Source: Orobanche coerulescens
Taxonomy: Eukaryota; Streptophyta; Magnoliopsida; Lamiales; Orobanchaceae
Assembly (NCBI GenBank): GCA_033398695.1
Contig: CM065802.1
Location: 154,056,096-154,120,095 of the forward strand
Length of the DNA: 64,000 nt
Reading direction: 5' to 3'
Shown here: piece after piece, positions 7,514-63,717 of the stretch
Layout of the letters: the number at the start of each line of letters is the position of its first letter
How positions within the stretch are numbered: the first letter of the stretch is position 1
Made by a program: the position numbers and the translations under genes
Notes under the pieces: generated by a model
The model's database searches: none
Told to the model about the DNA's origin: nothing
Seen by the model: only the letters and a program-made list of their open reading frames with translations

Positions 7514-8055
7514 AATAGCGCACGCTACGTACTCTCTTTAGAGCGCGCTAATTGAGTATAGGTAGCGCACGCTACCACTCAGAATTAGCGTACGCTAATG
7601 TTGTCTGTTGCCGCACCGAAGGCACCGACCGCAGTGAGTTAGGCAGCGCACGCTACGAATGGTAAGTAGCGCGCGTTAGTGGTTTGTAGTAGCGCACGCG
7701 AATATTTGGTGTAGCGCGCGCTAAGGTCGGACAAGCAGAGTCCAGTGGATACTAGACTGAATTGGATTAATTCATAGCGTACGCTATGAGTGGTTTTTAG
7801 CGTATGCAAACGGTGTAGTAGCGCACGCTAAATGTTGAATGTAGCGCACGCTACCGAGATCAGATCAGAGAACAGGAGGTTCTGGACTCCAGTACTGGGC
7901 ATCAGATAATTCGTTAACGCACGCTAATTAAAGGGGGTAGCGTACGCTACAAGAGGTACGTAGCGCATGCTACCGTTGCGATCAGAGGGTACTGGACTAC
8001 CCAGTACACCTGTTAGCGCACGCTACGCACAGGAGCTAGCGCACGCTAACTGGGA
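7514..8055 (+). promoter_or_regulatory. Cluster of about 17 TAGCGYRCGCTA palindromes upstream of LTR TATA box
   Basis: Roughly 17 copies (eye count) of a 12-16 bp palindrome, for example GTAGCGCACGCTAC, CATAGCGTACGCTATG and TTAGCGCACGCTAA, are spaced irregularly at about 20-60 bp. Spacers repeatedly contain GTCCAG or CTGGACT and CCAGTACTGG. The cluster stops just before the TATA box. Each copy is self-complementary, which fits a dimeric DNA-binding protein, and is CpG-rich. Confidence 0.85.
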
Positions 8056-8057
8056 TT

Positions 8058-8071
8058 TTCTATATATAGGA
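8058..8071 (+). promoter_or_regulatory. TATA box of solo gypsy LTR
   Basis: TCTATATATAGGAC directly follows the palindrome cluster and precedes CT-rich leader-like sequence. Transcription would therefore start at about 8095. Confidence 0.7.
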
Positions 8072-8233
8072 CAGTCCAGTCCTTTAACGTCATTTATCAT
8101 TTCTCTTCGTTTCTTCGGCGGTTTTGGGCGATTCTGGGCGATTTGGAGAGTGTTCTTCGAGGTGTAATCATCAATCATCATCTTCAAGCTTGGATTAATC
8201 ATCATTTCATCATCCCCATCACATCAAATCAAG

Positions 8234-9423
8234 GTAATAAGCTTCTTAGATCTATAATTTCGGATTTTTGGGTTTTTCCTTCCGATTTCTTCGTGTAAGC
8301 TTGGACTATTGTTGGAATATGGTATATATGATTATATACCTTGGATAAATGTATTCCTATGGATTTAGTGTCATATATTTCGGATTTCATGAATATTGGG
8401 GTTCGATTCAAGAACACTTTAGAGTTGACTTTGATATTTTTGGGGGTTTGCAATTAGATGTTGTCGTTAACTCGAATTGTGGATTCCTATGAGATTATTG
8501 ATATCATTGAAGTTGTTTTGTTGGTTTGAAATACTCATTTTTGGAGTGGGTTTTGATATATTCGAGAATTGGATATTATCGAGGGATGTGTGTTTGCTAA
8601 GTGTTTGTTAGAATACCTCTATGAGTTTGGATATTGTTGTATCGACGTTGAGTCGGTTATAATCGTGTTTGATTCGTATATTTAGCATTGTTGGTAATTG
8701 TCATTCAAGGTTGTTCGAGCGACCGACATCTCATTGTAGGATGTTTGTTCGAGGAAGGACATTTTTCACCAGTTGAGTAAGTTAATTCTTACTTGGTTAA
8801 AAGGATATTCATTCCTTTCATTGTTGTTCATTCATAATTATAGTTCATTCATAATGTATTAACCGTATTGAGACTTGCAATTGTCAATTAATCACTTCAG
8901 TCACAAGGAACGACGGTTCCAATCATTTCATTGAGCTATCATTCATTTCACTGTCATTTCATCTCGGTGATTCATTATTGATTTCGATGTCACTTTTGTT
9001 ATCTCGTGGCATTCCGGGTCATACTGGTGTGCCGGTTGGTATGTGTAGGATTTTCATGTCGGGCACATATTAAGTCGTGTGTTGGTTGTTGGCCTCACAT
9101 TGGACTGTGCACACGAGAAGATCACTTCGTGAGACTGATTAGGTATAAGACCACACGTGTATTCGATCGATACTCGATGGTGGCTTGTGCACGGACACAT
9201 TTCCATCACGGGCGTAGTGTGGCGCCACCCTTTGAGCCGTACTGTTAGTTGATTCATACAGCATGTTTGATTGCGTATGTTTTCAACAAGATTGGGTTAT
9301 AATCTAACCGATTCATTTTTGATCGAACTTGTGGTTTATACAGCATATATATGATTGTGTTTATTCAACTCTTGAGGATTGTTGTTCTGTGTAACTGACC
9401 CCGTTTGGGGATATTGTTTTTAG
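8234..9423 (+). other. Putative intron contained within the gypsy LTR
   Basis: The donor is CAAG|GTAATA at 8233/8234, about 165 bp after the TATA box. The acceptor is TGTTTTTAG|GTC, ending at 9423, with a branch-like CTGAC in the box CTGACCCCGTTTGGGG at 9395-9410. The same donor-box-acceptor order is found in other gypsy LTRs of the window on both strands. Prediction only; no transcript evidence is available here. Confidence 0.45.
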
Positions 9424-9781
9424 GTCATGGCAAGGCAAAAGCACGGGAATAGAACGTTGACGGCGAGGAGTCCCAGTGATACTAGTAGGGGGCCCCAAAT
9501 CCTTTCAGTCATTCATGTTGTTGTCATTTATTTTCCGCTGCAGATTTCCATTTGGATACTCCGTTTCGTTCAGTGTTGTGTATTTTATCTTCATATAAAA
9601 TATACATGTATTCGGTATTATCTTGGGTGTGTTATAATGAAACTCCTCATCGGAGTAGTTGATGAGATAATGTGGTTCGGTACTACATTTACCCTGTGTA
9701 TTTCATTCATTTTCACTCGCCTAGTGGGTCTCAGTCGGGGGTCCACGGCACTGTAATATCCGCCTAGTTTGGGGTGTTACA

Positions 9782-9997
9782 TAATTTCTGTTTTACTTGT
9801 AATTTTTGCTTACACTTTGTTTCATTCAAGAACTGCACTGTAATGTAGCTCTGAAAAATTTATAACAGTCAACTTGAATGACAACCACTAGTTGTCTCAA
9901 AAATACTGAGTTTGATTTGTGTCTTGCACTTTACTTTTGTGCAGACTTATTTACATTTGAATGCTTTAGTTTTGCCATCATCAAAATAGGGGGAGTT
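9782..9997 (+). other. Copia-1 3' untranslated region and polypurine tract
   Basis: This short noncoding stretch between the extra ORF and the 3' LTR resumes after the solo LTR insertion. It ends with the polypurine tract AAAATAGGGGGAGTTT (9983-9998), the primer for plus-strand synthesis, immediately before the LTR. Confidence 0.8.
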
Positions 9998-11607
9998 TGT
10001 TAGGAATATTATTTCAGATTTTGATGATGTCATCCCTGTATTCGTGATTAATTCAAATGTATGCTCTAAGTACTTGGTATTGTAAAGAAGAACCAAATGA
10101 GTATCTTCTATAGGCTTTAAAATTTAGGCTAAGTCTTGATCAAGTGTTGATCAGTTAGAAAATCGGCTAAGTATAGAACTGTCTAAATATCAGATAAGTT
10201 AATTATCATATATAATCATGCGAGATATCTTCACCCGCATTTTGGTCAACTCAAAAGATCAGAGAGGTTTGACCAAAACACTGTAGCAGATGATATATAC
10301 TCAGGCAACATATCAGGCGAGTTCTGGTTAACAAAATACATCAGAGAGGTTTAACCGCAGACAGAGAAGGTCTGGTCAACACAAAATATCAGCTAAGGTT
10401 TGACCATCATATAAGATTTTATCAGGCGAGTTATCAGGCCACCTTCGGTCATCAGCTGAGGTTTGACTACAGACAGGTACATTAACAGACAAGGTTTTTG
10501 GTCAAACAGATCATCAGAGGAGGTTGACCAAACCATATCTGCAGCCAAGTTTGAGAAACTCAGTCCACGTCAGCAAGCGTTGAATTCAACAATAATAGAA
10601 ATCCACATGCATACGTAAGAAGACAAACCGAAAAAATTCCCGGAAAGTTAGGAATAAAATATTCCTTGAGATCTGCGTTATGAAGACTTATGATTATACA
10701 AATCAAGAGAAAGTGGCGCGGACAGAAGAATTCTTTCAAACGGTCGGAATTGAAAAGGGAATCAAGCTGTGCAATGGAATGATGAGATAAACAAAGAAGT
10801 CCACTCTCCAACGGATGGATTTGTTACCGAAGATGCAACGGCTATGAAGGAAACTCAAAGAATTGTACTATAAATATCTGAAGATCAAAACTGAGCAAAG
10901 GACGATGCGAACAACACATTCAAGCGAACAAAGCAATCAAAGTTAGCAAACTATAGCATCATGAAGAGCTAGTTCTAAAGTTCATATACTGAGAAGCTCT
11001 TAAGTTGGAGAAGACAAACACTCTTGTCTATAAGGTTTGAGTACGGGGTACTTCTCTGAACAAGGTTCTCAGAAGTTTTTCAAGGCTGATAAACACCCAC
11101 GAGTTCTTGATTGGAAGGTGATAGATAGCTTGCGAGTTGTTGAGGCATCCACGGGTTTTCAGTCAAGAGGTGTTAGGCAGTCATTGGCGTTGCAATGCCC
11201 ACGGGTTTCCACTAGTCGGAAGTTGTTATAACCGTGTGAATCATTGTAACGTTTAACACTAGTTGAAAGTTATACTGAATTTATCTCCAACCGGTTTGGA
11301 GAAAAGTGGACTAGTATAGGATTACCCACCTCTGAAACCACTATAAGTGCTTGTGTGATTTACTATTTTAATCATCATACATAACTGCTGTATACATATT
11401 TATTGGTCCTTTTAGCAGTCAACTGTCTTCCACATAACTTAGTTTTACAGTCGACATAAGTCACCTGTACTATTACCAGTTGTGCTTCCGCACTACTCAT
11501 CTGCAGCTAAGGTTTATTAGCTGCATATTAAACATCCGAAGTAACTCACCTGAGATTTAGGAAAAGAGTTTAATAAGTCTATTCCCCCCCTAGACTTATT
11601 CCTAACG
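9998..11607 (+). mobile_element. Copia-1 3' LTR (about 1.61 kb)
   Basis: It begins TGTTAGGAAT directly after a polypurine tract and ends ATTCCTAACG at 11607. The expected terminal ATTCCTAACA carries an A-to-G change. The inverted ends TGTTAGGAAT/ATTCCTAAC support the borders. The 5' LTR is beyond the left edge of the window. The upstream half carries many TTGACC/GGTCAA motifs, then a TATA box CTATAAATATC at 10868-10878. Beyond 11607 the sequence is an older copia LTR into which Copia-1 inserted. Confidence 0.85.
10240..10540 (+). promoter_or_regulatory. W-box-like TTGACC/GGTCAA cluster in Copia-1 LTR
   Basis: About ten TTGAC(C)/(G)GTCAA motifs or close variants fall within 300 bp: TTTGGTCAAC, GGTTTGACCA, TCTGGTCAAC, GGTTTGACCATC, GGTTTGACTAC, TTTGGTCAAAC, GGTTGACCAAACC and others. 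They alternate with ATCAGGCGAG/ATCAGCTGAG words. TTGAC is the core of the W-box bound by plant WRKY factors. The cluster takes the place occupied by palindromes in the other LTRs. Confidence 0.65.
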
Positions 11608-17347: not shown

Positions 17348-17921
17348 TTTTTTGTAACATCCACAAGATATTCAGGTTATGTTACAGCGTCGTGGACCCC
17401 TATGTGGGACCCACCGGGCAAACCAATATATACCGCTCGTCTAACCATCTCGGTTAGCAAGAAAACACACATCACCAAGACACAAATTAAATAAAACGCC
17501 CAGTACAACCCGTAAACCAAACATCATCAAAAATCACACATAAAATTTAGTATACAATCCATCTTCCAACTTTAAAACGCCTAAGTACTCGCGAGTACTA
17601 TCTATCAGTTTATAAGTTTGAAAACAAATGTTTTAAAATAGACAATTGAAATAAAGGGGCTGATTTGCACATGTCAACAACCCTGGATAGCATCCTTGTA
17701 CTACTCCAGTGCCCGATCGACCGGCTGACCGCAACCTGAAATTCGTAACACGAATTTCCCCAAAAATGGATCCCCAAAGGGGTTAGCAATTACGCTAGTA
17801 CAAGTAATCAAGGCAAACCATACGCTTACACATCTCATAGTACATGCATTAAATTGTTTCAAAATCAAGACATGTCTTCTCCCGGAAAACAAACAGTCAA
17901 TAATCATAGTTGAAAATCGCC

Positions 17922-18145
17922 TAGGACTGGGGCTAAACCACTGGTCTCATCTGAGGCGTCTATGGACCCTCCCAGACTGGCCATAGTTAAAAAAATTACG
18001 CATATGACTCACCTAGGACCGGGGCTAAACCACTGGTCCCATCCGAGGCCTCTACGGACCCTCCCGGACTGGCTATCCAAACAAGCTCGTGAATCAGGAG
18101 CGAAATCACAGATTCCTCCGAGGCCCAGTTGGACCCTCCGGGAGT
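17922..18145 (-). repeat. 90-bp direct repeat in Gypsy-A LTR
   Basis: Two to two-and-a-half copies containing CCTAGGACYGGGGCTAAACC, ACTGGTCYCATCYGAGG, CTCTAYGGACCCTCCC and GACTGGC, at 17922 and 18012. The block sits between the putative donor and acceptor, as do GC-rich direct repeats in the other gypsy LTRs. Confidence 0.75.
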
Positions 18146-18386
18146 GAGCAAATCACACACATATACATTATCATTCCATGTTTATCATAAGGGTTTCACA
18201 AGAATGTTTACCTTGAGAAATTAACGACGAAATGAGCGGAACAATCAACCACGCTCGCTAGGAACCGACAACCATGAACATAATGATCCGAAGAATACAA
18301 TCACAACCAATTCTACACGAGTACGAAAATGTAATACACCCGAAAAACCACCTACAATTCATGCAAATTCGTACAAAAACAACAAC

Positions 18387-19562
18387 TGTTGGAGAATTAT
18401 CGGATATTGCGCCGTTTGTGCGGAAGCGTAAATAAGGTGCGGAAATTAAACGACACATCGATGTATAGAGGTTCGGCCAAACGTGCCTACGTCCTCTCTC
18501 TCAATATCTTTTTCTAAAGGTTTAAGATCAAAATCTCTGCACCTCTCTTCAATCGATTGAGGGATTACCGTTACAAGCTCGTCTTCTATCGGTCCGAGTA
18601 AAACCATTTTTCCTTTTCTATTGGATAAGGAATCAACCTCTCTAGCTTTCTATCGGTACTAGATAAACCTCACTAAGATAGCGATTGCAATTCTAACAAT
18701 GCTGGATCCTTGATCCTAATAACACCGAATCCAATCGTATCTTTTCTTTTGCCTCTCGTGTATGATTTTATGTATAACACTCAATCACTCTAAATTAAGC
18801 TCAAGAACAGCAACTATAATGTTTATAATGATATAATACGTATGTATGCTTTGCTCAATGTTGTTTTTTTAATGATACCAACTCATTTGGTATTTATAGC
18901 CTTCTTCCACAAACTAGTCGTTACTGCCAGTTGTTATTAGCATGCGCTAGACTTCTTTCCTTAGCGTGCGCTATCGCATGTATTTAGCCTAGCGTACGTT
19001 ATGTGCTGTTACGTACGTTAACGTTCTTCCAGTTTCAGTCCAGTGGCTTCTGTCCTTCATAGTTAGCGTGCGTTAACACTTTCTTTGTAGCGTGCGCTAA
19101 TCATGCATCATTGCATGCGTCATATATCCATTAATACCTTTTGACTTGTAGCAGATTCTTCCCAACGGATTGATTGACTTGATTCAAATTGATATTTAGC
19201 ATGTGCTAAATATCATCTCTTGCGTGCGCTAATCTTACTTCAGTGCATACGACATTCTGTGTTTGAATCTCTTCACAATGGTAATATTGGCTCGATAGCG
19301 TTCGCTAATCATCACGTGTAGCGTGCGCTATCCTCATCAGGTGACTTCACTTCAGGTTACTTCGAGCTCGTCTGATCTGCAGCCGGGACCCGTTAACGTG
19401 CGCTAACTTATATATCTAGCGTGCGCTAGCTTTGTATTTTGTCCAGCTTTTTGCGTCTTCGATTCCTTCGTCGTTTTGCTTCGCCTCTAAGTTGTTTTGC
19501 TTTGTTTAGCAACTTAATCATCAAAACATTATTTATTAATATGTAGAATAAATATTCCAACA
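18387..19562 (-). mobile_element. Solo copia LTR (1176 bp) with perfect target duplication
   Basis: It starts TGTTGGAGAATTATC and ends AATATTCCAACA, and is flanked by ACAAC on both sides (18382-18386 and 19563-19567). It is homologous to the LTRs of the gag-only copia at 59631-63717 (shared GAGGTTCGGC, CTACGTCCTC, TTTCTATTGGATAAGGAATC and the segment around the TATA box). It is read on the minus strand, with TATA at 18889-18900 and a palindrome cluster upstream of it. Unlike the relatives, most of its palindromes have the GCGYRCGC core. Confidence 0.93.
18935..19435 (-). promoter_or_regulatory. Mixed TAGCGYRCGCTA / TTACGTACGTTA palindrome cluster upstream of LTR TATA box
   Basis: About a dozen palindromes including TTAGCATGCGCTAG, TTAGCGTGCGCTAT, GTTACGTACGTTAAC, GTTAGCGTGCGTTAAC, TAGCGTGCGCTAA and TAGCATGTGCTA. 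The spacer CCAGTTTCAGTCCAG and the flank GCATGCGTCATATATCC align with the copy at 59890-60000. Individual palindromes can therefore be matched one-to-one between the two LTRs. Confidence 0.8.
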
Positions 19563-19944
19563 ACAACGAGGGCGGGTCGCAACCGAACCCTCTCGATTTC
19601 ACAAATGCCACGAAATTTACCATGAACTCGTAGGAAAACATTAATACCACTAAGATTAATCACATACATCATGGATTAATCAACAAAACGGAATGAATCT
19701 GACATAAAATCGAAAAACCCCCAATTCACCCAAAGATAAGGTTCTAAGAGTTTACCTCGGATCAAAGACGAAGAACAAGTGTTGGTGTTTTTAAAATACA
19801 CCAAGAACTCAAGGTAGATGATAAGTGAGATAATTGGGAGAAGAAATAGCCTCAGATCGCCTCTGGTTCAACAAGTCGAGGGGAATGAGATGAAGTGAGG
19901 AAATAGACGCATCTGGTTCAACTCTCGGGTATATATAACCCAAC

Positions 19945-20395
19945 GGTTTAGCGTGCGCTAACGTATTGTGGTTAGCCTGTGGTTACCAGCCAACCCTGGT
20001 CCAGAACCTTCAGTTCTGACTGTTAGCGTGCGCTACCGATAATTAACATGTGTTATAAGCCCTCCATTAGCGCGCGCTATCGACCTATAGCGTGCGCTAC
20101 CTGTTCGTATTCAGAGTCCAGGAACATTCTGCCTCAACTGGAATACCGAATTAGCGCGTGCTGCCACAAATCTAGCGTGCGCTGAGTCTCAACCATAGTG
20201 TGCGCTAATCTACAGACTTAGCGTGCGCTAAATTGCCCATCCAGAGAGCAGAAACAACCTACTGCCACTTCTGTGCTCGAATCATTATCGCGCGCTACTA
20301 GAGAAGTTAGCGCGCGCTACTAGAGAAGTTAGTGCACGCTACTCAACGACTTCAACATGCTATACATAACAAAATTAGCATGCACTAACGAGCGC
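19945..20395 (-). promoter_or_regulatory. TAGCGYRCGCTA palindrome cluster and TATA box of Gypsy-A LTR
   Basis: About 14 copies or variants such as TTAGCGTGCGCTAAC, ATTAGCGCGCGCTATC, TATAGCGTGCGCTACC and GTTAGCGCGCGCTAC. They lie upstream, on the minus strand, of GGTTATATATACCC (19929-19942). Spacers contain GTCCAG and CTGGACC, as in the solo gypsy LTR cluster. Confidence 0.8.
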
Positions 20396-20754
20396 AGACA
20401 GTAGTACAGACAGCACTGAAAGTTGGAAAAACGACGAATTCTCCCCCTGATGAAAACAACGCGCACCCTACACCAAACAACGGACTGAAGAATACACACG
20501 CACGATCAGTTCGAGTCAGAACTAGAGCACTAAAAGAAAACATGATTCTGACTACCCAAAGGTTCGGAAAACGACAACGATAGTAATTACTCCATAACTT
20601 TAGGAAATTACAAAATAGTCCAAAACATCCAAAGTACACGATACACGATCGAAACACCAACCAGGAGCTCATAACATGCATAATAACATAAGATAGATTT
20701 ACGGAAACCCCGAAACGGCGGTTCCGAACAACAATTACGAGAATCGAACCAAAT

Positions 20755-23427
20755 TGTAACACCCCCAATCCGCTCAGGGATATTACACGCCGTAGACCCT
20801 CTCCTCGAGGATCTACCAGGCTGGTAACAACATTTAACATCTCGACAATGCCTTCAAGGCAAAAGGACTCAGTAGACCGATTTGGTCTTTCAATAAAATA
20901 TACAACTCGATTACAAACACATACCCACGCAGGGGTCAAAATACAATAAACTCCCGTACAACGGGGAAAAGGTACTGCATCGGAAAAGAAAATACAACTA
21001 GACCAATACGACATCAACGGATCCTCGTGTGATTAGTATCGTTCATCTTTCATCATCCTTCGTGCCGACCCTATGCCATGCTCCAAAACCTGAATGCAAA
21101 AATAGACATCCACCCCGAATACTGGGGTTAGCAAACTCCACCGTTTTGCTAGTGCAAGTATAAATTACGAAAACGAGCCATACATATCATACTCCACGGA
21201 ACATGTTAATCACAAACATACTTCCCGAGGTAAATCACTTAATCAAAACGGTTAAATCGAAAGATAGGTAAACCCGATATACATCTTGTGAAAACATTTT
21301 ACGATCTCGGGAGTTTTGAAAACACATTGGGATTTAAGAATTCTCAAACCTTACAAAACGCTAGGGACACAAATTTCAAAAGTCATTTTCCCAAAACTAA
21401 AATCCGATAACAACAAATGGGGTCCACGACCCGATCATACCATAACAACCTGTTTCCACAGATTATTCGCGTCCGTGCTAGCAAGCCACGGACCTCGATG
21501 CTCCCGTAGAACAAACCCGAGTGAATAACCCACAGGGAAACTATATCAAATCACATGTCACCGTAACCGCAGTCACGTGACTACAAGCACATATACGTAC
21601 ATAATCAAACCACAACCATAAGTTATCCCGGCATCGCGCTAACAAGCCACGAACCTCGGAGTCCCCGCAAGACATACCCGATGATACCCCACAAGTTATC
21701 TCGGCATCGGGCTAACAAGCCACGAACCTCGGAGTCCCCGCAAGACATACCCGTATTGGATAACCCTACGGTTTCGCCCGACCCATACTAGCAAGTATGG
21801 ATCCCGGAGATTCAACAATCCTACCCGGAGGCACATCACTTACATCAAGCACACAACAATAATCACTTATCAAGCCAAACAACATTAAGTATCACAACCT
21901 CCTTTCAAGGAGTAACAACTAATATCACACACATTACGTTCTTACCGAACAAGTACACAATAACAATACGTAATCCCCGGCAAAGGATTACGGTCTATCA
22001 ACTCACTCGAAGTGATCATATTATCTTTAAACATACAAAACCAACACACATATTCCGAGAACACATATTCACGAAGTATACGAATTATCGTTGAAAGACA
22101 ACATTTATCGAGAACATACCGATCCCTTTTTACGTTCATTAAACATTGGATTTTGCATAAAATCATTTATAAAGAATTATATCAACGAAACATGAAATGT
22201 ATGGGCAAGATACTTGCCTCAAAATCGGCACGCAAGTATCCCGACGAACACGGCTCAACCGGAAAGCTTCGAAACGCCCAATGCTATCGAAACGGAAGAC
22301 GACGATTTAACGAAAGGGTTCAACACGATTTCTTCACAAGAAACACGACCCTAACATCATACAATCAATAAATCATCGATCATACGAGGAAGAATAATCG
22401 TAGAACGCCCGACAACCCCTCTAAGACATTTTACCGGACACCTTCAAGGCGTCGGTCAAGAACTCGACCCAAGTAACGAATCGATACGATCCAACCATGG
22501 AATAACAAGGGAAAAGATATAATACATCTAAATATTCATCAATACATCATAATCCTAAGTTAAATCGGATTAATCGGACGAAAACAACCAAAACCCCCAA
22601 ATTCCCCAAAACTAGATTTCTAGGAAATCTGACCTGATTCGCTCGATCAAAGGATGTTATAGGACGGATGATTGACGATATGAACCTCCAAACTTCATGG
22701 ATATGTTGCTAAACAACATGGCTTCAAGCTTAGAACACGCCCAGCTTCAGAAGAGGAGAAGAAGAAGGTGAAAAATGGCAAGAAAACGTCTCAGTGGCCT
22801 TTTATAGGGGTTGATCGCTGCCGACACGCCCGTGCCGATCGGCACGGCCGTGTCGCATACCTGGCCGACAGGATATGTGACTCGTCCGACAAGGACTTCA
22901 AGACGACTCGACCGTGTCCGAACACGGTCGGGCGTGTCGGCATCGTCTCGAGCTTATCCTAAGAGTACGCAGCACGGCCGTGTCGGACGACACGGCCGAG
23001 TTCGGTCGGCGTAAACCTCGGCATTTCGGACGAGTACGCACGGCCGTGTCGGACGACACGGTCGGGTTCGGCCGCAATGATCGCCAATAACGAGCGGTGA
23101 GCTAAAACGACCATAACTCTCTCGTACGGACTCCGATTTACTCACCGCTTGAACCATTGGAAAGCTAACTCGATGCTCTATAATATTGCAAGATTTAGAA
23201 TTTTGGAGTTACCAAAAATTAATGGTGACTTTACAAAGTCGAACTCCCACGTGAAAAAGTCGATTAAGGACACGGAACTCAATAAAACGACACCGAAACG
23301 AACTCGGATGACAAAAAGTGCAGAATTAATCATTCTCGAAATGACGATAGGTCATGAGCGAGTCGTCAAAACGGACTTCCGCCGAAAAAAAAGAAAATTA
23401 CCGAAATTCGAAATTGCGGATATTACA
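20755..23427 (-). repeat. Left (3') LTR of the gag-only gypsy element
   Basis: 2673 bp. On the minus strand: palindrome block (23066-22815), TATA CCCCTATAAAAGG (about 22810-22797), donor CAG|GTCAG at 22633, box GCTAACCCC-N7-GGGG (21132-21113), acceptor TGCATTCAG|GT ending at 21090. It also has direct repeats of CGAACCTCGGAGTCCCCGC, with CAAGACATACCCG, at 21650-21755. Confidence 0.92.
22815..23066 (-). promoter_or_regulatory. CACGGCCGTG-type palindrome block upstream of LTR TATA box
   Basis: Several copies of GCACGGCCGTGTCGG and CGACACGGCCG occur, plus GTGCCGATCGGCAC (a perfect palindrome) and GACACGGTCGG. This is a GC-rich counterpart of the TAGCGYRCGCTA and ACGTACGT clusters, at the same place relative to the TATA box. 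Confidence 0.75.
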
Positions 23428-23872
23428 TTCTACCCTCCTTAAAAGAAGTTTCGTCCCGAAACTTAAAACAAGTAGGGAGAAGCAATATCCCGCCAGAAAA
23501 CTCAATGAGATACGCAAGAAACGCGTAACTAATGCCAAACGGCGAAACGTTACATACAACGCAACGGAATATACGGTGTGAAAACACGCTCCACGACGAC
23601 CAACACAACGTCGCCGTTAGGGACATGATAAAATCAACAAGTGACAAACGTCATCAAATAGATAATACAATCAAGTCAATTATCCGAACAATCACAAAAC
23701 ACTAAGCACCGTGCATGGTTGAGAAAACGAAAAATAAACACAAAACGATCCACTTCGAATAAAAGAACTTTATCTCCGAGATTCGAAACAACCGGGTAAG
23801 GAAATAACATAACATACAACTGATAGACCACGCCCCTCAGGGACTCCTCGGAGTTGGTCCTGATTTCAGTGC
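23428..23872 (-). other. 3' internal noncoding part of gag-only gypsy element
   Basis: Starts with the polypurine tract next to the LTR. The remainder shows no recognisable pol sequence and no sustained reading frame. Confidence 0.6.
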
Positions 23873-26260: not shown

Positions 26261-26272
26261 GCTCCGATACCA
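26261..26272 (-). other. Primer binding site of gag-only gypsy element
   Basis: The minus strand reads TGGTATCGGAGC, one mismatch from the initiator tRNA-Met complement, three bases from the LTR start at 26276. Confidence 0.88.
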
Positions 26273-26275
26273 TTC

Positions 26276-40463: not shown

Positions 40464-40475
40464 GCTCCGATACCA
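40464..40475 (-). other. Primer binding site of Copia-2
   Basis: Minus strand TGGTATCGGAGC next to the right LTR, close to the initiator tRNA-Met complement. Confidence 0.85.
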
Positions 40476-40477
40476 AT

Positions 40478-41468: not shown

Positions 41469-41470
41469 AT

Positions 41471-41880
41471 TGCATTTTGGCAATTGGCCTTATACTCTTA
41501 AATGGTTCTAGGACGGTATTTGGAAAATAGATTTTGAAAAGCCTTCATTTAATGCCCCGGCCTTCTATATGCATGATTTATTATAACCTCACGTGCAGCA
41601 TTAGGTCTTTTGCATTGATAAGTAATAAAATTTTGACTAATTGGATAAGCTTAGATCTTTTACACATTTTTAATTCGGAAATTATATATTCAGTTATCTG
41701 GTTGGGATTCCCTTCCGAGTTTGATTTTTTTCACCGTACAGGTCATTGCATCGAACTTCACCATTTCAAAATCATTTGACGCATGATCTTCGTGTGAAGG
41801 TCATCCACCAGTTAAATTGCAAACTAACCATGACTAATGGCTGTTAAAGGCTATGGTTAGCGGTCGTTAACGTGCATAAG
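41471..41880 (+). repeat. Direct duplication, right copy, abutting Copia-2
   Basis: Second copy of the 415-bp unit at 32305-32719, starting TGCATTTTGGCAATTGG and passing CGTTAACGTGCAT near 41878, after which sequence unique to this side follows. Confidence 0.85.
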
Positions 41881-47170: not shown

Positions 47171-47819
47171 TGTTGGATCAAGATTGGAATATGCGCCGTG
47201 TTGCGGAAGCATAAAAAATAAGTTGCGAAAATTAAATGATGCACGAATTTATAGAGGTTCGGCTATAAACGAGCCTACGTCCTCTTTCGGTATCTTTTTC
47301 AATAGGTTCAAGATAAAAACCTCTGCACCTCTCTTCTATCGGTCGAGGGATAACCGTTTACAATCACGTCTTCTATTGGTCCGTGATGAACCACTCGTAC
47401 TTGTCTTTGTGTCAGTCCAAGTTAAACCGTTTTCCTTTTCTATTGGATAAGGAATCAACCTCTCTAGCTTTTTACGGGTACTAGATAAACCTCACTAGAT
47501 AGCGATTGTGATTCTAATAATGCCGGATTCTTGCTCCTAATAACACAGAATCCAATCGTATCTTTTCTTTTACCTCTCGTGTATAATGTTGACTGTATAA
47601 ACACTCAAACTAACAATGTAATCTCAATATCACAACAACAATAATATCAATATGAATATCTGATCATTGAGATGTTTGCTTGAAGTTGTTGTAGGGAATA
47701 ATACCAAAGATATGGTATTTATAGGCTTCATCAACCAAACTAGCCGTTGGCTCTTCATGCTGCATTACGTATGCTATCTCTGCAATATTACGTACGTAAG
47801 CTTGTTTACGTACGCTAAT
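47171..47819 (-). mobile_element. Truncated copia LTR (palindrome-bearing family)
   Basis: It starts TGTTGGATCAAGATTGG and is homologous to the LTRs at 18387 and 59631 (GAGGTTCGGC, CCTACGTCCTC, TCTATTGGATAAGGAATC). The minus-strand TATA GCCTATAAATACC is at 47729-47717. Only the first palindromes (ATTACGTATGCTAT, ATTACGTACGTAAG, TTTACGTACGCTAA) remain before an abrupt switch to gypsy pol sequence at about 47820. Confidence 0.85.
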
Positions 47820-48592: not shown

Positions 48593-49109
48593 TGTAATAT
48601 CCGTACCATTCCTTTTTTAGCAGTTTCTATTTTTGGTGTGTCTATTTTTATCGACTCGCTTGTAACCGTTTCGACATTTTGAACCTACTTTATTCTTGGA
48701 GTTTTTCCATTTGGACGAGTTTTGGAGATAATTTTACGTAATTCCATTTTATGTTGTGTTTACCGTATGTACGTTCGATTCTCGTAAAACTCGTTCGTTT
48801 TTGTTGTTTCCTTGTTTACACAAGTCTGTATGGTTGAGTTATTCGTTTTGTGACTTTCGGTTTGTTAATCCGACGCCGTATCGTGATTTTCGGACACTTG
48901 GGCCATTTTTGTAATTTCCTATAAATTTAGGGAATTTCATCTTCCTTGTTGTATTTCGGATTCCCCGGTAGTCAGAATTGTATTTTCTTTTAACGATTAG
49001 ATTCGTCATCGAGAATACTTCGTAACCATATTTTTGATTCGATAGCAGGTCCGAGTTTCGGAGTCGTCCGGGACAGTTCGGACAACAGCTTCTTAGACTG
49101 CTATCCAGT

Positions 49110-49200
49110 AGGGTGTTATGGCCGTAACACCCCATGCATTACGTCCGTAATGTTGGCCTTGTTACAGCCATAAGTTAGCCCCTGTTACGGCCGTAATAGC
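49110..49200 (+). promoter_or_regulatory. TTACGGCCGTAA palindrome cluster in Gypsy-C LTR
   Basis: Four to five copies or variants in 90 bp: GTTATGGCCGTAAC, ATTACGTCCGTAAT, GTTACAGCCATAAG and GTTACGGCCGTAAT. No strong TATA box directly follows. Single TAACGGCCGTAA copies also occur inside the ACGTACGT clusters of Copia-2. Confidence 0.65.
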
Positions 49201-49398
49201 CTGCTGTTTTAAGAACAGCGGGCAGAGGTCAGAAACCTCATTTCACATCTTTCTTTCGTTTTTCCTCGTCGGGCGATCAGAGAACCTCCAAGGCGATTTC
49301 TTCCACTTCTCATCCGTGTATTCTTCATTTTCCATCACCGTAGAGTCGGCCTATCATATCATCATCAACGTAATCATCTCCCTTCGTCCGAATTCAAG

Positions 49399-50171
49399 GT
49401 ATTTTCGTCTAGAACCCTAACTTGTCAATTTTGGGGGTTTTTCCGGGTTTTGCTTGTTAGACTCGAATTGTTCAAGTATGTTGTGATGTTCCTTATCGAT
49501 TGTTGTTATTGGGTGACTCCCAATCCGATTTTGTCGAGTTTATTCCGTGAATTGTCGATTCAGGGAGGTTTTGCATAAACCCTCACCCGTATCGATTGAT
49601 CGTATTGTGACATAGCTTGTAATCGGGGTTGTGGGCGTTTTCCATTCAATTAATGTTATCTTACTGGACTGAGTTATGTTAATCCTTCGTTTAGGAATGG
49701 CCATTTTTCCTTCGGATCATTCGTAGTCGTTGTTCTTTCCCGTTTCATCAAGAATGTCTCAAAGGCAAGTACTTTACATTTATTTACGCGTTCTAGTTGA
49801 ATTGTGGCTTTTCGTGGTTGTATGGATAGATATATGTATGTTCACCTAGGGACGGTCCGACGGGGCCTCTAGGGATACGTATTGCCATGAGTGTGCGTAT
49901 CACGAACTATTGTTAACCACCCAGGGATGTCCGACGGGGCTCTACGGGGTACGGGGGCCGTGAGTCTCGTACCAACGGTTAACTTTGAATTTTTTTGTTG
50001 GAGAAATGTGTTTTGTGCTTGTGCACCGTAAATATTCTGGAATATAAATGATTTCTAAAATGATTTCTGGCGCATATTTTCATCTGATTAGAATGGTAGT
50101 TCAACTGGTTTGTACTTGCACTAGCAGTTGTCGCTAACCCCTTAAATGGGGGAAATACTTTTGTATTTCAG
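49399..50171 (+). other. Putative LTR intron of Gypsy-C
   Basis: Donor CAAG|GTATTT and acceptor TTTGTATTTCAG|GTACAGG. The acceptor is preceded by GTACTTGCACTAGC-N9-GCTAACCCCTTAAATGGGGG, a stretch also present with few changes in the gag-only gypsy LTRs and in Gypsy-A. Confidence 0.45.
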
Positions 50172-50542
50172 GTACAGGTCATGGAAGAAAACGAGCATGC
50201 GAGCCGTAGGAGGATGATGGGCAGGCGTGATTCTGTTCAGTGGTTGTCTATTGGTGTCTTGTTTTGGGATTTCTTTATTATGTTTTTTGCTTAAGTACTC
50301 GAGTACTTCTTTCTTGAATTTATTAATGTTGTGTACCCGTTTTGGGGAGTAGATTTGATGTCAAATTGTATTGTTGAATTTCAATCTTTGGTGTTGAATG
50401 TCGTGGATTGTGAAATTGTCGTTTTGTTGATGATGTATGTCTTTGTCGAATGTCATTTCGGTATGTTAGCCTGGTAGATTCCACAGTGTGGGGTCCACGG
50501 CGCTGTAATATGCCTTGATCATCTTGGGGGTGTTACAGAATG

Positions 50543-51330: not shown

Positions 51331-51903
51331 AAAAAATAATATATTCTTATTAAATAAACCCATTATACATTAAATATAAACTTTTATTAAAGAAATTCAT
51401 TAGAACATTAACTTTTATTCAAACATTTAGAATTTAAAATATAAACTTTTATTAAATAAACTCATTACAACATCAACTATTATTCAAACATTTAGAATTT
51501 AAAATATAAACTTTTATTAAATAAACTCATTACAACATCAACTTTTATTCAGACATTTATAATTTAAAACATAAACTTTTATTAAATAAACTCATTACAA
51601 CATCAACTTTTATTCAAACATTTAGAATTTAAAACATAAACTTTTATTAAATAAACTCATTACAACATCAACTTTTATTCAAACATTTAGAATTTAAAAC
51701 ATAAACTTTTATTAAATAAACTCATTACAACATCAACTATTATTCAAACATTTAGAATTTAAAACATAAATTTTTATTAAATAAACTCATTACAACATCA
51801 ACTATTATTCAAACATTTAGAATTTAAAACATAAACTTTTATTAAATAAACTCATTACATCATCAACTATTATTCAAACATTTAGAATTTAAAACATAAA
51901 CTT
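51331..51903. repeat. 65-bp tandem array next to the transposase stop codon
   Basis: About eight to nine copies of a 65-bp unit with AAACTCATTACAACATCAAC, TTTTATTCAAACATTTAGAA and TTTAAAACATAAACTTTTAT. CTCATTACAA landmarks fall at 51461, 51526 and 51591. The last unit runs into the transposase stop (51904), so the array forms the whole 3' noncoding part of the transcript. Confidence 0.9.
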
Positions 51904-54002
51904 TTATTCATCGAGAGTGATATCTTCTTCGGAGCTAGCCTCGTGCGAAGCTTCATCGAGAGCAATTTCTTCATCGGAGAGTGAAATTGCAAAACCTTCT
52001 TCCACCTCGATATCGTGTATTTCTTGTTCAATGTCTAGTTCTCCTTCAAGACTTTGAGTGTGTTGTATACGCTCGGATGCGTCCAAGTGATCCTTCAAGC
52101 AAATACACATCTCCAATGATGCCGGTGTGAGTCTTGTTCTTCGTATAGATAATACCCTACCACTAAGAGAAAAGGCGGATTCCGAAGCTACCGTAGAAGC
52201 TTGGACGGTTAGTAAATCTCGGGCCATAGCGGTTAGAACGGGAAATTGAGTTTCCCTTCCTTTCCACCAAGCCAAAATACCAAAATTTGCGAATTCATGG
52301 GGTCCCATAGTCGATAAAAAATCGGTTCTAATATATCTCCCATATTCGCTAGTCGATGATTGATCACCCTCACCCCTAGCCCGTTTAGTGTTTTCTTCTC
52401 TTAAACTATTATATAAGTTAAGCATGGGATCCGCGCTAGTAGAAGTAGAAAATGATGATGAAAACGAACTTGAAGAATCATTTCTTGAACCATACTTTTT
52501 AAAATAAACCCCGAATAAGTCTTTGAAATTTTTGTTAAAAATGGCTTTTGCATCTCTTGAATAGAAAACATTTTCGTTATGCAACTCTAAATCAATAGAG
52601 ATTTTGTCGATAAGTAGTTTCACCCCGCTAATATTCATACATGGGTTCAAGGCGGCGGAACAAGTAATTACCGGTGGCATTGCTTTAAAATATTTTCTTA
52701 GTTTTTCTTTCATGGGCGAAACCATTTTTTCATATAAATCACCACTTAATTCGTAGTCGCTTAATTTTGAACACATCAAATAAATTTGATTAAGTACCAA
52801 ATGACTCGTGGGATAATAAACACCCGATAATAAAGTTGTTGCGTTTTTAAAAACATTGTGCAATTCGCTTATTTTTCTAACTATATCCCATTGTTCCGAC
52901 GTAAATGGTGTAACCCTACTCGTCCTATTCGCAAGTTCATCATGAAAAAGTTGTAAAGTATCACGTTGGCGTAAACCACAACAAAACATTTTATAAGTCG
53001 AATTCCATCTTGTAGGAACATCCCAATTAGGGGTTAAAAAAATAGAATTCGTGTCCTTACACAATTTCATATATTGTTTATATCTAGCTTTACTTGAACA
53101 AAATATATCTTGTAACATTTTTTTAAAAGCGTCTTTTACCAAACTTATTTCGGGTACCGCTAATCCGTCTTGAACAACCAAGTTTATAATGTGTGCAACA
53201 CATCGACTATGATAAAAAATACCCTTCGAAGGCGGTTTATATGTTAATATTAATTTTTTACCGCGTTTGTATTATTAGACGCGTTATCAAATGAGATCGA
53301 AAAAACTTTTTCTTGTAAGTTAAAGTTATTTATTACATTTTGTAATATATGAAATAAATTTTGACCCGTGTGAGGGTACTCAAAATTTTCAAAAGCAATC
53401 GTACGCTTCATCATTAGCCATGTATCGGGATCAATCCAATGTGCGGTAACACAAAGGTATGAACCGGGCAAACCATGAGGTGCCGACCAAACATCGGTTG
53501 TTAAGTTTACATTTGTATTTAAGTTTGCAAAACCGTTTACTAGTTCCATTTTAGCCCTTTTCCATAATTTAATACAATCACGTCTAAGAGTAGCACGACT
53601 TACTTTTTTATATCGCGGTTGAAGAGTATTTTGAATCACCTTAGTCAATCGAGGGTTATCGAAGTGGTTGAACGGCAAACCTTCTTGAATCACGTAGCTT
53701 GCAAATTATTGTCGGCACCGCTCCGCCTCGTATGCAAAAAGACCGCCCTCTCGTGACATAGATGCTTGACCGGCTTCCGGAACGGATTTGAGTCCTTCGC
53801 AATACTTGTCGGTATGCATCTTCAACGTCGTGTTGGATTCATGTTTCAAAAACTTACCGCAATGTTTACAATGAGCCTTAAGTTGCCCATCCGACAACCT
53901 CACGAGGTTGAAATTACACCAAATTTTTTGGTTTCGAGTTGTTTCTATAACTTCAACAATCTCGGGTGCATTCGTGGAAGCGGAAGAAGATTGAGTTGCC
54001 AT
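51904..54002 (-). pseudogene. hAT transposase (BED finger, RNase H-like core, hAT dimerisation domain)
   Basis: The likely start is ATG at 54002-54000. The N-terminal BED zinc finger reads IWCNFNLVRLSDGQLKAHCK with CGKFLKHESNTTLKMHTDKY. A TAA interrupts the frame at about 53708. The core follows with LTTDVWSAPHGLPGSYLCVT (first catalytic Asp region) and FSISFDNASNNTNAV (second Asp region). A one-base frameshift lies in an A run near 53255. The frame then continues through the CVAHIINLVVQDGL motif to the C-terminal dimerisation domain (FPVLTAMARDLLTVQASTVA, SESAFSLSGRVLS, RTRLTPASLEMCICLKDHL) and an acidic tail. Total length is near 700 codons, as usual for Ac/RICESLEEPER-type proteins. With only two lesions this is a recently silenced copy, or the lesions are sequencing errors. 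Confidence 0.9.
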
Positions 54003-54184
54003 TTGAATTGAGAGAAACGAGAATTTTGTAATTTTTTTAGTACTTGAAGAGTGTTTGAGTATTGTGACTAAACCAAAACTCAAATAGGGTATTTATAGTT
54101 GATTTAGGGATGGCAAAATGGTAAAAAAGGGGCAAAAAACGATCACATTTTTGAAAAAAACGGACACATAACTGATACATGCAA

Positions 54185-59630: not shown

Positions 59631-60673
59631 CTGTTGGAACATTTTGTTCCATGCATAAATTAAAAGTGTTTTGATGATTAATGTTGATAAGCAAAACAAA
59701 ACAACGAAAAGACGAAGCCAAGCATCGAAGGAAACGAAGTGCAAAATGCTGAAGAAAACAAAGCTAACGTACATAACAGGAACATGTTAACGTACGTAAT
59801 AGGATGAAGCTAACGTACGTAATACAAAAAAGATAACGTACGTAACACAGTTCAAACAAGTGAACGTTGGAGGAGTCAAAGTCAGAAAAGCATGCAACGG
59901 ATATATGACGTCATCGGTGATGTAATGTTAACGTACGTAATGGGTAGATGGCTAACGTACGTAACTCAAATGACGAAGCTCCCTGGACTGAAACTGGAAG
60001 AGGCTTACGTACGTAACCCGTGGTGGCTAACGTACGTAACGAGGCTTGCGTACGTAATAAGGAGATGATAGCGTACGAAATGAGCAGTCTGGCAGCTAAC
60101 GGCTAGTTTGATGATGGAGCCTATAAATACCATCCCTATGGTATTGTTTGAGCACAACAACTTTGAGCAAATTGTCTATACTTGTGATATTATTATACAC
60201 ATTCTTGCTGTTGATATTGAGCTTAATTGTAAGTGTTTGAGTGAGAATTCACGAAAACATACACGAGTGGTAAAAGAAAAGATACGATTGGATTCGGTGT
60301 TATTAGGATCAAGGATCCGGCATTATTAGAATCGCAATCGATATCTAAGTGAGGTTTATCTAGTACCCATAGAAAGATAGAGCGGTTGATTCCTTGTCCG
60401 ATAGAAAAGAAAAACGGTTTAACTTGGACCGACGCAAAGACAAGTACGAGTGGTTTATCACAGACCAATAGAAGACGTGATTGTAACGGTTATACCTCGA
60501 CCGATAGAAGAGAGGCGTAAAGGTTTTTATCTTGATCCTATAGAAAAAGATACCGAGAGAGGACGTAGGCTCGTTTATAGCCGAACCTCTATAAACCATC
60601 GCGCGTCATTTAATTTCCGCAATTTTATTTACGCTTCCGCAACAAGGCGCAATATCCGGCCCCGTACCCAACA
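59631..60673 (+). repeat. Left (5') LTR of the gag-only copia, with ACGTACGT palindrome cluster
   Basis: 1043 bp. About ten palindromes lie between 59763 and 60080 (GCTAACGTACGTAAT, GATAACGTACGTAACAC, GTTAACGTACGTAATG, GCTAACGTACGTAACTC, CTTACGTACGTAACC and others) ahead of TATA CCTATAAATACC at 60120-60131. The spacer CTGGACTGAAACTGG at 59983-59997 is the reverse complement of the spacer in the solo LTR at 18387. Confidence 0.93.
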
Positions 60674-60732
60674 ATTGGTATCGGAGCGGTACTCCAATAC
60701 ACGGCTTAACATCCGAGGAGAAAAAGATCCAA

Positions 60733-62272
60733 TGGCGTTTCAATTTGCTCCTGTCGAAGGCCTTGCTCTCAACCGACCACCTTTCTTTGATGGCTCAAAT
60801 TATTTGACATGGAAGAAAAAGATGTCGATCTTTATTCGTGCCTACGATATAGAGATTTGGAAGATTATTTGTCTCGGCCCAAAAGTTCCTATCAAATCCG
60901 ACGGTACGCTCAAATCTTTCGAAGAATACGACGATACCGATTGGAAAAATGACCATCTAAATTGTAAGGCTACTCAACTCTTATTTTGTGCCTTAAATCT
61001 GGAAGAGGTCAATCGATCTCATCGTGTGAGAGTGCGAAAGAAATATGGAAAATTCTAGAAATCACACACGAAGGGACGACTCAAGTCAAGGAGACGAAAA
61101 TCAATATGCTTCTCCATGACTACGAGTTATTTATGATGAAGGGTGACGAGTCCATCACCAATATGCTCGATCGATTTTCGGTCATCACCAATGGACTTGC
61201 TTCATTCGGAAAACCATTATCTAGTAGTGAAAAAGTTAAGAAAATTTTACGATCACTACCTAGCGAATGGGACGACCGATAAATGGCGATTATGGAATCT
61301 AAAGATCTCGATGCGCTCGATTTTAGTGCCCTTGTTGGTTCACTAATCAATTATGAGATCGTGTTAAAATCACGAAGTGTCAAGCCGAAGCCGAAGGAAC
61401 GATCGTTAGCCATGAAGGCTAAGATATCGAGGAAGAAAGAAGAAATCCCGGTGGAGGAAAGCGACGAAGAAGCGGCATACTATGCCAAGAATATTAATAA
61501 ATTCCAAACTTTATTAAACCGGAGGAAGAAGGATATCTCGAGCGAAACGAAGAAATTCGACAACTCTTGTCGACAATGTGGAAAACCAGGCCACTTCGCT
61601 AAGCATTGCCGAGCTAAACCCAAGAAAGAGGTTCTCGTGGCAACATGGAGCGATGAGGACGAAGACGACGATTTTATCGAACAAAATAATCTCGCTCTCA
61701 TGGCTCGAAGTTCGTTCGACGACAGTGACGTTGAAAGCCAAGTAAGTACATCCTCTCGTGACGAATTATTTGATGCATTTGAGTTATTACATACGGATTT
61801 TCAAAATGCTTTATCGGAAATAAAATCCCTTAAGTCTAAAATTAAATCTTTGGAAATTGAAATTTCCAAAATTATCGAGAAGGGAAAATTTGTTGAAATC
61901 GATCATTCAAAGTGTATTGAAAATGAAAATATTTTGAAAAATGATCTCGCTAAAATCCAAACCGAGCTTAAATCTTTGACAAAGAAATTCTCGTGTGGAA
62001 ACGAGAAATTTGAACAAATGCTTGGTATTCAAAAATTTACTTTGAATAAAGAGGGGCTAGGATTCAAAACTTGTTTGAAAAACGAATCCGTTAATCTCAA
62101 GATACCTCATTGCGAAAAATGTTTAAAAATCGGGCATCATATTTCAAGTTGCGAAAGCCCGAGACGGACGATAAAAATTAAGAAAATTTGGGTTCCTAAA
62201 GGAACAATCATTTCAAATATCGTCTACATTTCTAAACAAAAACCAACTATAGGTTGGATCCCCAAACATTGA
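60733..62272 (+). pseudogene. gag of the gag-only copia
   Basis: The start ATG at 60733 (MAFQFAPVEGLALNRPPFFD) opens a UBN2-type gag with NYLTWKKKMSIFIRAYDIEI. A frameshift near 61020-61040 moves reading to the frame of EIWKILEITHEGTTQVKETK. A stop TAA at 61280-61282 interrupts it next. From 61283 the same frame is open for 329 codons: CCHC knuckle CRQCGKPGHFAKHC (residues 96-109), acidic region SDEDEDDDF, coiled coils rich in Lys/Glu, a second knuckle-like CEKCLKIGHHISSC, and a terminal IKKIWVPKG stretch where pol would begin in Copia-2. Gag alone would act in particle assembly; other enzymes would have to be supplied in trans. Two lesions make this copy inactive. Confidence 0.88.
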
Positions 62273-62675
62273 TTTTTGGTATTTTACTCAGGGGGAGTAA
62301 TTTTTTTAAACGGATAATATTTTCAGGGGGAGTTAATACCCTTGTATTTATTTTTGCATATTCATTATTTATTGAATTTTTTTATTGGTATTTTATTGCA
62401 CTTTTTGATGAATACAAAAAGGGGGAGAGATAGGAAAATGGAGAAATAAGTCAAAAATGTGATTAACCGTGAAATGGGGAGAAAAATCGAAGAAAATCGA
62501 TAGCATACAAAAAGAATTAAAAAAAAAAGAAAAGGAGTCGAAGAAATGGGAGAAGATTCTAACGAAACGGACAAAGTCGAAAACTTTGGTCTGTAAAGAT
62601 ATACATATATTTGTATTTTTGCAGGTAAATCCCATTGACGAAATGTTGTTTTGTAATCATCAAAAAGGGGGAGAT
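62273..62675 (+). other. Multiple polypurine tracts of the gag-only copia
   Basis: TCAGGGGGAGTAAT (62288), TCAGGGGGAGTTAAT (62325), AAAAAGGGGGAGAGAT (about 62416) and AAAAAGGGGGAGAT (62662) occur in the same order as in Copia-2. Intervening sequence is A-rich and noncoding. Confidence 0.78.
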
Positions 62676-63717
62676 TGTTGGAACATTTTGTTCCATGCAT
62701 AAATTAAAAGTGTTTTGATGATTAATGTTGATAAGCAAAACAAAACAACGAAAAGACGAAGCCAAACATCGAAGGAAACGAAGTGCAAAATGCTGAAGAA
62801 AACAAAGCTAACGTACGTAACATGAACATGTTAACGTACGTAATATGATGAAGCTAACGTACGTAATACAAGAAAGATAACGTACGTAACACAGTTCAAA
62901 CAAGTGAACATTGGAGGAGTCAAAGTCAGAAAAGCATGCAACGGATATATGACGTCATCAGTGATGTAATGTTAACGTACGTAATGGGTAGATGGCTAAC
63001 GTACGTAACTCAAATGACGAAGCTCCCTGGACTGAAACTGGAAGAGGCTTACGTACGTAACCCGTGGTGGCTAACGTACGTAACGAGGCTTGCGTACGTA
63101 ATAAGGAGATGATAGCGTACGTAATGAGCAGTCTGGCAGCTAACGGCTAGTTTGATGATGGAGCCTATAAATACCATCCCTATGGTATTGTTTGAGCACA
63201 ACAACCTTGAGCAAATTGTCTATACTTGTGATATTATTATACACATTCTTGTTGTTGATATTGAGCTTAATTGTAAGTGTTCGAGTGAGAATTCACGAAA
63301 ACATACACGAGTGGTAAAAGAAAAGATACGATTGGATTCGGTGTTATTAGGATCAAGGATCCGGCATTATTAGAATCACAATCGATATCTAAGTGAGGTT
63401 TATCTAGTACCCACAGAAAGCTAGAGCAGTTCATTCCTTGTCCGATAGAAAAGAAAAACGGTTTAACTTGGACCGACGCAAAGACAAGTACGAGTGGTTT
63501 ATCACGGACCAATAGAAGACGTGATTGTAACGGTTATACCTCGACCGATAGAAGAGAGGCGTAAAGGTTTTTATCTTGATCCTATAGAAAAAGATACCGA
63601 GAGAGGACGTAGGCTCGTTTATAGCCGAACCTCTATAAACCATCGTGCGTCATTTAATTTCCGCAATTTTATTTACGCTTCCGCAACACGGCGCAATATC
63701 CGGCCCCGTACCCAACA
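62676..63717 (+). repeat. Right (3') LTR of the gag-only copia
   Basis: 1042 bp, near-identical to the left LTR. Palindrome cluster at about 62807-63125, TATA at 63165-63176. Palindromes at two places are more perfect here (ACGTACGTAAC, AGCGTACGTAATG) than in the left LTR. Confidence 0.93.

Follow-up and report, generated by a model that had tools for sequence, protein, structure and literature searches.

Nested LTR retrotransposons at the locus

The stretch analysed here, called the window throughout, comprises 64,000 nucleotides of Orobanche coerulescens contig CM065802.1 (assembly GCA_033398695.1, forward-strand positions 154,056,096 to 154,120,095), and our subject is a set of short palindromes arrayed within the long terminal repeats (LTRs) of its retrotransposons. 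Judged by protein domains and LTR pairs, the window is plant-like DNA composed of nested LTR retrotransposons, and this single 64-kb sample holds nine insertions (Table 1). Arrays were found in Sireviruses (Ty1/copia; four insertions) as well as in LTRs of Ty3/gypsy type (also four), while a fifth gypsy-type element (20755-28948) bears a different palindrome.

Table 1. Insertions in the window and their palindrome arrays, in window coordinates (TSD, target-site duplication; PBS, primer-binding site; PPT, polypurine tract; ORF, open reading frame).
Feature	Position	Strand	Description
g7k	7285-9781	+	Solo LTR, Ty3/gypsy type; TSD TAATT, TG..CA ends; 3' end homologous to g19k and g49k
g7k array	7516-8048	+	17 palindromes of TAGCGCACGCTA type; TATA at 8061 follows after 12 bp
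g19k	17356-20754	-	Main part of a Ty3/gypsy 5' LTR; PBS at 17347, gag/protease/RT domains beyond PBS
g19k array	19949-20387	-	13 counted sites of the TAGCG class; TATA at 19937 follows after 11 bp
s18k	18387-19562	-	Sirevirus solo LTR; TSD ACAAC; 73-77% identity to S2 LTRs
s18k array	18938-19428	-	13 sites, most of them TAGCGCACGCTA in sense; TATA at 18898 follows after 39 bp
gypsy-type element	20755-28948	-	LTRs 20755-23427 and 26276-28948; TSD CAAAT; shared LTR 3' end
Array of this element	22815-23075	-	CACGGCCGTG/CCGTGCCGATCGGCACGG, before TATA at 22806; mate 28332-28620
u30k	29492-31772	+	Solo LTR, Ty3/gypsy type; TSD AGTTG; LTR 3'-end homology
u30k array	29831-30155	+	10 TTACG-class sites, 14 bp before TATA at 30170
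S1	32720-41470	-	Sirevirus with env-like ORF; LTRs ~32720-33715 and 40478-41470; PPT, PBS, TSD TGCAT, domains
s33k array (S1)	33279-33623	-	10 sites of TAACGTACGTAA type; TATA at 33237 follows after 41 bp; mate 41035-41379 (s41k)
env-like ORF (S1)	34376-35419	-	Stop-to-stop stretch; PF20167, E 3.9e-12, 46.9 bits (cut-off 45)
env array (S1)	35443-35595	-	6 palindromes of the TTACG class, ahead of the env-like ORF
s47k	47192-47818	-	Truncated Sirevirus LTR; ~84% identity to the S2 LTRs at 59.6 and 62.7 kb
s47k palindromes	47765, 47788, 47806	-	3 left, 41 bp before TATA at 47723
g49k	48593-50537	+	Gypsy 5' LTR, then PBS at 50543; homology to g19k LTR end, PBS and leader
g49k array	49116-49196	+	TTACGGCCGTAA-like units at 49116, 49139, 49162 (degenerate) and 49185; 23-23-23 bp
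S2	59632-63717	+	Sirevirus; LTRs 59632-60676 and 62676-63717; PBS, PPT copies, TSD TTTTC
s60k array (S2)	59765-60080	+	10 sites, 41 bp before TATA at 60122; mate 62809-63124 (s63k)

The assignment of these insertions to two superfamilies is central to what follows. S1 and S2 each carry four copies of the Sirevirus PPT close to the 3' LTR, at 33864, 33824, 33808 and 33723 in S1 and at 62290, 62325, 62420 and 62666 in S2, in both cases with the junction AGGGGGAG-AT-TG. The Sirevirus PBS junction has been published as CA/ATTGG TATCAGAGC, and the PBS found here, CA-ATTGGTATCGGAGC in S2 and ATA-ATTGGTATCGGAGC in S1, lies one base off that form. Membership of s18k and s47k in the Sireviruses follows from their LTR identity to S2. 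An earlier interpretation of this DNA, made from its letters alone and referred to below as the sequence-only reading, had listed the palindromes at 47770-47819 as a cluster of their own; they belong to the truncated s47k LTR and do not form a separate class.

The gypsy LTRs were assigned as such because of their LTR ends, TSDs, PBS and adjacent gag/pol. Beside g19k, the start of which lies at 29139 and which is interrupted by s18k and the 20755-28948 element, RVT_1 and RVP_2 scored above cut-off and Retrotrans_gag reached 20.5 bits, below its cut-off of 24.1. The g49k LTR is 69% identical to g19k over 408 bp covering LTR end, PBS and leader, and g7k, u30k and the 20755-28948 element were assigned by a common LTR 3' end, which aligned with a mean column identity of 70% among seven sequences, two of them LTR mates. 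No coding domain was recognised in the 20755-28948 element, and no pol in S2, where Pfam matches were absent from the two ORFs scanned. The possibility that all arrays are Sirevirus-derived and that the gypsy label is an artefact of nesting was ruled out by the LTR ends, the TSDs and the shared 3' ends.

Palindrome classes and their enrichment

The palindromes fall into two main classes, TAACGTACGTAA / TTACGTACGTTA (TTACG) and TAGCGCACGCTA (TAGCG), and each class occurs in both superfamilies: the TAGCG class was found in one copia and two gypsy LTRs, the TTACG class in a single gypsy LTR besides copia LTRs. In g49k the palindrome takes the form TTACGGCCGTAA. The claim of the sequence-only reading that unrelated gypsy and copia LTRs carry the same palindromes was thus borne out, and its clusters do lie where it placed them, although those at 22815-23066 and 28332-28620 consist of a different palindrome, CACGGCCGTG (Table 1). 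The list had also missed the env array and the g49k array, as well as the 23-bp spacing described below.

That the arrays are real is clear from their counts. The motif TWRCGYRCGYWA has 68 exact matches in the window, compared to a mean of 0.07 and a largest value of 1 in 100 dinucleotide shuffles. In addition, we performed an unbiased scan for 12-bp palindromes with at least 5 of 6 pairs matching and at least two CpG in 14 stretches, each compared to 200 Markov simulations, and nine of the 14 exceeded all simulations (counts, with the simulation maximum in brackets: g7k 15 (6), s18k 8 (4), g19k 7 (6), l22k 9 (8), s33k 8 (3), s41k 8 (3), env 4 (3), s60k 8 (5) and s63k 9 (5)). The other five stretches did not rise above the maximum, namely u30k 5 (5), l28k 7 (9), s47k 1 (3), g49k 2 (4) and w0 1 (6), and for u30k, s47k and g49k it is the specific motif that carries the case. 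Of the 43 sites in TAGCG arrays, 28 have CA as their sense-strand centre and one has TG; the orientation of the units is thus the same throughout an array and also among three LTRs.

Position, spacing and layout of the arrays

Placement of the arrays just before a TATA box, as the sequence-only reading had it, held for both superfamilies apart from g49k. The last palindrome lies 41 bp from TATA in s33k, s47k, s60k, s63k and s41k (the TATA box of the latter, in the 5' LTR of S1, has decayed) and 39 bp in s18k, and the corresponding distances in the gypsy LTRs are 12 bp in g7k, 11 bp in g19k and 14 bp in u30k. Between last palindrome and TATA we also observed a YAACGG box, at 60095 and 63139 in S2, 47751 in s47k and 19939 in g19k. 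It resembles the MSA (MYB3R) element. AACGG is the core of the MSA element (PMC10905365). Since the window holds 12 near-matches, the box may be a chance occurrence.

The spacing of the palindromes follows a rule. With s41k and s63k omitted as LTR mates, 31 of 78 neighbour spacings over nine arrays were 23 bp; the gypsy arrays contributed 15 (of 41 spacings) and the Sirevirus arrays, env array included, 16 (of 37). For the cleaned sets used for spacings, gaps, centres and layouts, two distal g19k matches and one overlapping u30k match were removed, and g49k was left out of the spacing count and the gap list; in the cleaned set 32 of 74 spacings were exactly 23 bp, whereas in 2000 random placements no single value came up more than 10 times. 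Spacer sequence was near-random between the superfamilies. Among 11-bp spacers, to which all identity tests were confined, gypsy and Sirevirus spacers were 0.279 identical compared to 0.264 when shuffled (225 pairs), and spacers of different Sirevirus arrays 0.293 compared to 0.273.

Three arrays of the TTACG class also have much of their layout in common. Six palindromes over ~190 bp are placed alike relative to TATA, within one base, in the LTRs of S1 and S2, the identity of which is 0.317 outside the palindromes (shuffled 0.239, z 2.1) and 0.635 inside. Spacings in S2 (s60k) run 23, 23, 23, 95, 24, 52, 23, 18, 23 and those in the gypsy LTR u30k 23, 23, 23, 105, 23, 51, 24, 18, 23, so that eight of nine agree within 2 bp (p 0.0022, uncorrected as are all p-values given here); seven of nine agree between u30k and S1 (p 0.0040) and likewise between S1 and S2 (p 0.0026). 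In contrast, s18k, which is related to S2 but belongs to the other motif class, reached an agreement of only three of nine (p 0.73). Since u30k, S1 and S2 agree and s18k does not, array layout goes with motif class in this small set. In the env array, the quartet and pair of the S1/S2 LTR module stand in reverse order.

The longer gaps contain a second word. CTGGAC is present in eight of 20 gaps of at least 40 bp, while the best 6-mer in 300 shuffled sets reached seven, twice, and AGTCCAG is present in seven of the 20, with at most five in shuffled sets. Of the six gaps measuring 51-55 bp, four contain CTGGAC; at this place S1 shows a variant differing by one base, and in the env array no more than TGGAC is present. 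CTGGACT recurs in the long gaps, and in u30k lies in the opposite direction. The sequence-only reading had noted GTCCAG/CTGGAC as shared by the spacers, which holds for part of these gaps; in the window as a whole the word shows no enrichment (21 occurrences, 19.05 expected).

Possible binding of a dimeric host factor

We consider it about an even chance (probability roughly 0.5) that the arrays are sites for a dimeric host factor in the LTR promoters and were reached convergently. A dimeric factor, the reading also proposed from the letters alone, fits best, since the distance between palindromes is constrained and the sequence of the spacers is not. Constrained distance combined with free spacer sequence points to proteins that touch across 23 bp, and a motif common to two superfamilies points to a host protein. 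The arrays would then act as upstream activating regions of the LTR promoters, presumably in activation rather than repression, and would be recognised by a dimeric, host-encoded, sequence-specific protein, or by two related ones corresponding to the TTACG and TAGCG classes. One dimer would occupy each 12-bp palindrome, a 23-bp pair with its 11-bp spacer would hold two touching dimers, and some of the longer gaps may offer CTGGACT as a second site for another factor. In the TTACG class, the proximal module consists of a pair, ~52 bp, a quartet at 23-18-23 and then TATA. Sirevirus and gypsy LTRs would have taken up the same factor independently, with the array of an LTR turning over as a set.

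Several observations weigh against this explanation. The spacers within S2 (0.427), S1 (0.409) and, slightly, g7k (0.295) are more alike than when shuffled (0.25-0.27), and local duplication has therefore contributed. The three layout p-values below 0.01 stem from 21 pairwise tests and from as few as nine spacings, and the same tests revealed no common layout among TAGCG arrays. The distance to TATA is not the same in Sireviruses (39-41 bp) and in three gypsy LTRs (11-14 bp), no TATAWAW was found beside the g49k array, and CTGGAC is missing from 12 of the 20 long gaps. Furthermore, no single published site fits both motif classes: the NAC core TTNCGT[G/A] (PMC4081100) is found in 33 of 39 TTACG-class sites (u30k, s33k, s60k, s47k and env) but in only two of 43 TAGCG-class sites (g7k, s18k and g19k) and in neither of two sites in g49k. 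NAC proteins may thus suit the TTACG class but not the TAGCG class, and the published palindromic form of their site, CGT-N7/8-ACG (PMC4081100), is also unlike the present geometry.

A more specific proposal, which we put forward more tentatively, is that a single family of dimeric host factors dictates the grammar of these promoters (23-bp pairs, CTGGACT in the gaps and a fixed TATA offset), that Sireviruses and Ty3/gypsy elements have met this grammar independently, and that layout follows motif class and not ancestry. What triggers abundant plant retrotransposons is largely an open question, and a motif and spacing rule common to two superfamilies makes it directly testable, since a protein recognising palindromes at 23-bp spacing would be expected. 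Should a single host factor drive both, it would couple the bursts of two large lineages of retrotransposons.

The layout of u30k, nearly the whole of which recurs in S2 and S1, could also mean that recombination or template switching carried an array from an LTR of one superfamily to an LTR of the other and that its spacers have decayed since, as the sequence-only reading had suggested as one option. We regard this as unlikely. A sensitive BLASTN comparison, which took in parts of the g7k, u30k and g19k LTRs, returned as its only gypsy-Sirevirus matches one of 39 bp between u30k and each S1 LTR; both are inverted and cover palindromes. Apart from these two matches, spacers and BLASTN give no sign of recent exchange between the superfamilies. 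Spacers are near-random between them, CTGGACT runs in the opposite direction in u30k and the distance to TATA differs.

Dense arrays of a single motif in a single direction that change together are also the pattern of VANC targets (PMC5735166, PMC10398659), and it may be asked if a protein encoded by a transposable element (TE) binds the palindromes and removes methylation, as VANC does for VANDAL, with other elements exploiting it. The ratio of observed to expected CpG would suit such a role, being 1.18 to 1.96 in seven of eight arrays measured compared to 1.03 in the window, but it is 0.86 in g49k. Moreover, VANC targets are family-specific whereas the present motif is common to two superfamilies, and the part of the S1 and S2 ORFs that was scanned yielded no candidate for a DNA-binding protein, making anti-silencing improbable.

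Pairing of the palindromes in the transcript, where U3 lies in the 3' end of the genomic RNA, could serve packaging or small-RNA silencing. Folding was calculated for the g7k and S2 arrays; g7k folded better than shuffled sequences (z -6.18), but S2 barely did so (z -1.78, with three of 100 shuffles as good), and a comparison of self-complementarity with complementarity to neighbours did not distinguish DNA sites from hairpins. An excess of small RNAs has been reported over the maize Sirevirus palindrome clusters, as cited in PMC10760457. On the other hand, neighbouring TAGCG palindromes keep the same off-centre CA, which creates mismatches between neighbours, and hairpins do not need a fixed distance to TATA; we therefore find an RNA structure rather doubtful. 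Least probable of all is a functionless, degenerate 23-bp tandem repeat drifting by slippage, which could account for the likeness of spacers within S2, S1 and, slightly, g7k and for two identical 10-bp spacers in g19k, but not for kept palindromes between near-random inter-family spacers, gaps of 18, ~52 and ~100 bp recurring at matching slots, or a constant TATA offset in divergent LTRs.

Comparison with known systems

Palindromes before TATA and before ENV are already known in Sireviruses (PMC2829016), in agreement with the sequence-only reading as regards the LTR promoter. These repeated motif (RM) boxes occur in at least eight copies in the upper part of the LTR upstream of TATA, with extra copies upstream of ENV in env-bearing elements (PMC2829016). 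Correspondingly, the S1, S2 and s18k LTRs have 10 to 13 palindromic sites upstream of TATA (the truncated s47k has three), and six sites at 35443-35595 precede the PF20167 ORF of S1. The published boxes, however, have a CGG-CCG core in 12 of 13 cases listed, the exception being Tnd-1 (PMC2829016), whereas in the present arrays CGGCCG is rare and the prevailing forms are CGTACG or CGCACG; centres are mostly TA or CA, and a GC centre occurs in one of 10 sites in s33k and one of six in env. RM boxes were also called Sirevirus-specific on the basis of a Ty1/copia comparison (PMC2829016), while here the gypsy LTRs g7k, g19k and u30k carry palindromes of the same motif classes as the Sireviruses, and g49k a TTACGGCCGTAA form. 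Bousios et al. (2010) found no common binding factor (PMC2829016), and their account, as far as consulted, gives no spacing rule.

The palindrome clusters of maize Sireviruses (Bousios et al., 2016, as cited in PMC5311732 and PMC10760457) likewise lie in the cis-regulatory part of the LTR, but their palindrome, CACCGGACNNNGTCCGGTG, is unlike the present motifs. VANC targets resemble our arrays in being dense, short, one-direction motifs that evolve as a set in non-coding parts of TEs (PMC5735166, PMC10398659), and differ in that their carriers are DNA transposons, where each family has its own motif and the binder is encoded by the element, whereas our motif is found in two LTR superfamilies. 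Among the literature matches listed, none was found to describe palindrome arrays for gypsy LTRs or a rule of 23-bp spacing, although Bousios et al. (2016) may describe spacing.

A search of genome_contigs, described as 257 billion bases, for TTACGTACGTWA-N4..13-TWACGTACGTWA gave seven stretches, all titled bacterial metagenome-assembled genomes and on these titles judged unrelated. Two viral contigs held look-alikes, which we also judged unrelated. On one (L001:12696-12730, GC 0.72), TAGCGTGCGCTA and TAGCGCACGCTA stand exactly 23 bp apart and look like a paired operator; on the other (L002:5761-5900, IMGVR_UViG_3300033463_001428), a TTACGTACGTAA-like array with a period of ~22-23 bp has the look of iterons or operators, that is, the same palindrome at nearly the same period in an unrelated setting. 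One further motif scan of viral_contigs gave no match. A protein search with the 6881-7252 ORF returned two candidates, none of which was scored.

Other features of the window

The flanks of S1, at 32310-32719 and 41470-41877, are direct copies of one 408-410-bp stretch and 93% identical. S1 has an ordinary 5-bp TSD (TGCAT), yet seems to have inserted precisely where the two units of a tandem duplication meet. At 9988-10020 lies a PPT junction of Sirevirus-like form, AGGGGGAG-TT-TG, which seemingly opens a 3' LTR, in which the motif scans listed no array. Between pieces of a copia RNase H-like frame (2282-2851 and 3665-3910), the stretch 2854-3665 has palindromes of its own, TACCGACGTCGGTA, AACGACGTCGTT and AACGGCGTCGTT, and contains a direct repeat (3289-3382 and 3525-3616). 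Finally, pieces of a hAT transposase (Dimer_Tnp_hAT and hAT-like RNase-H) were recognised on the minus strand at 51904-54092, adjoined by a direct repeat with a 65-bp period at ~51372-51908.

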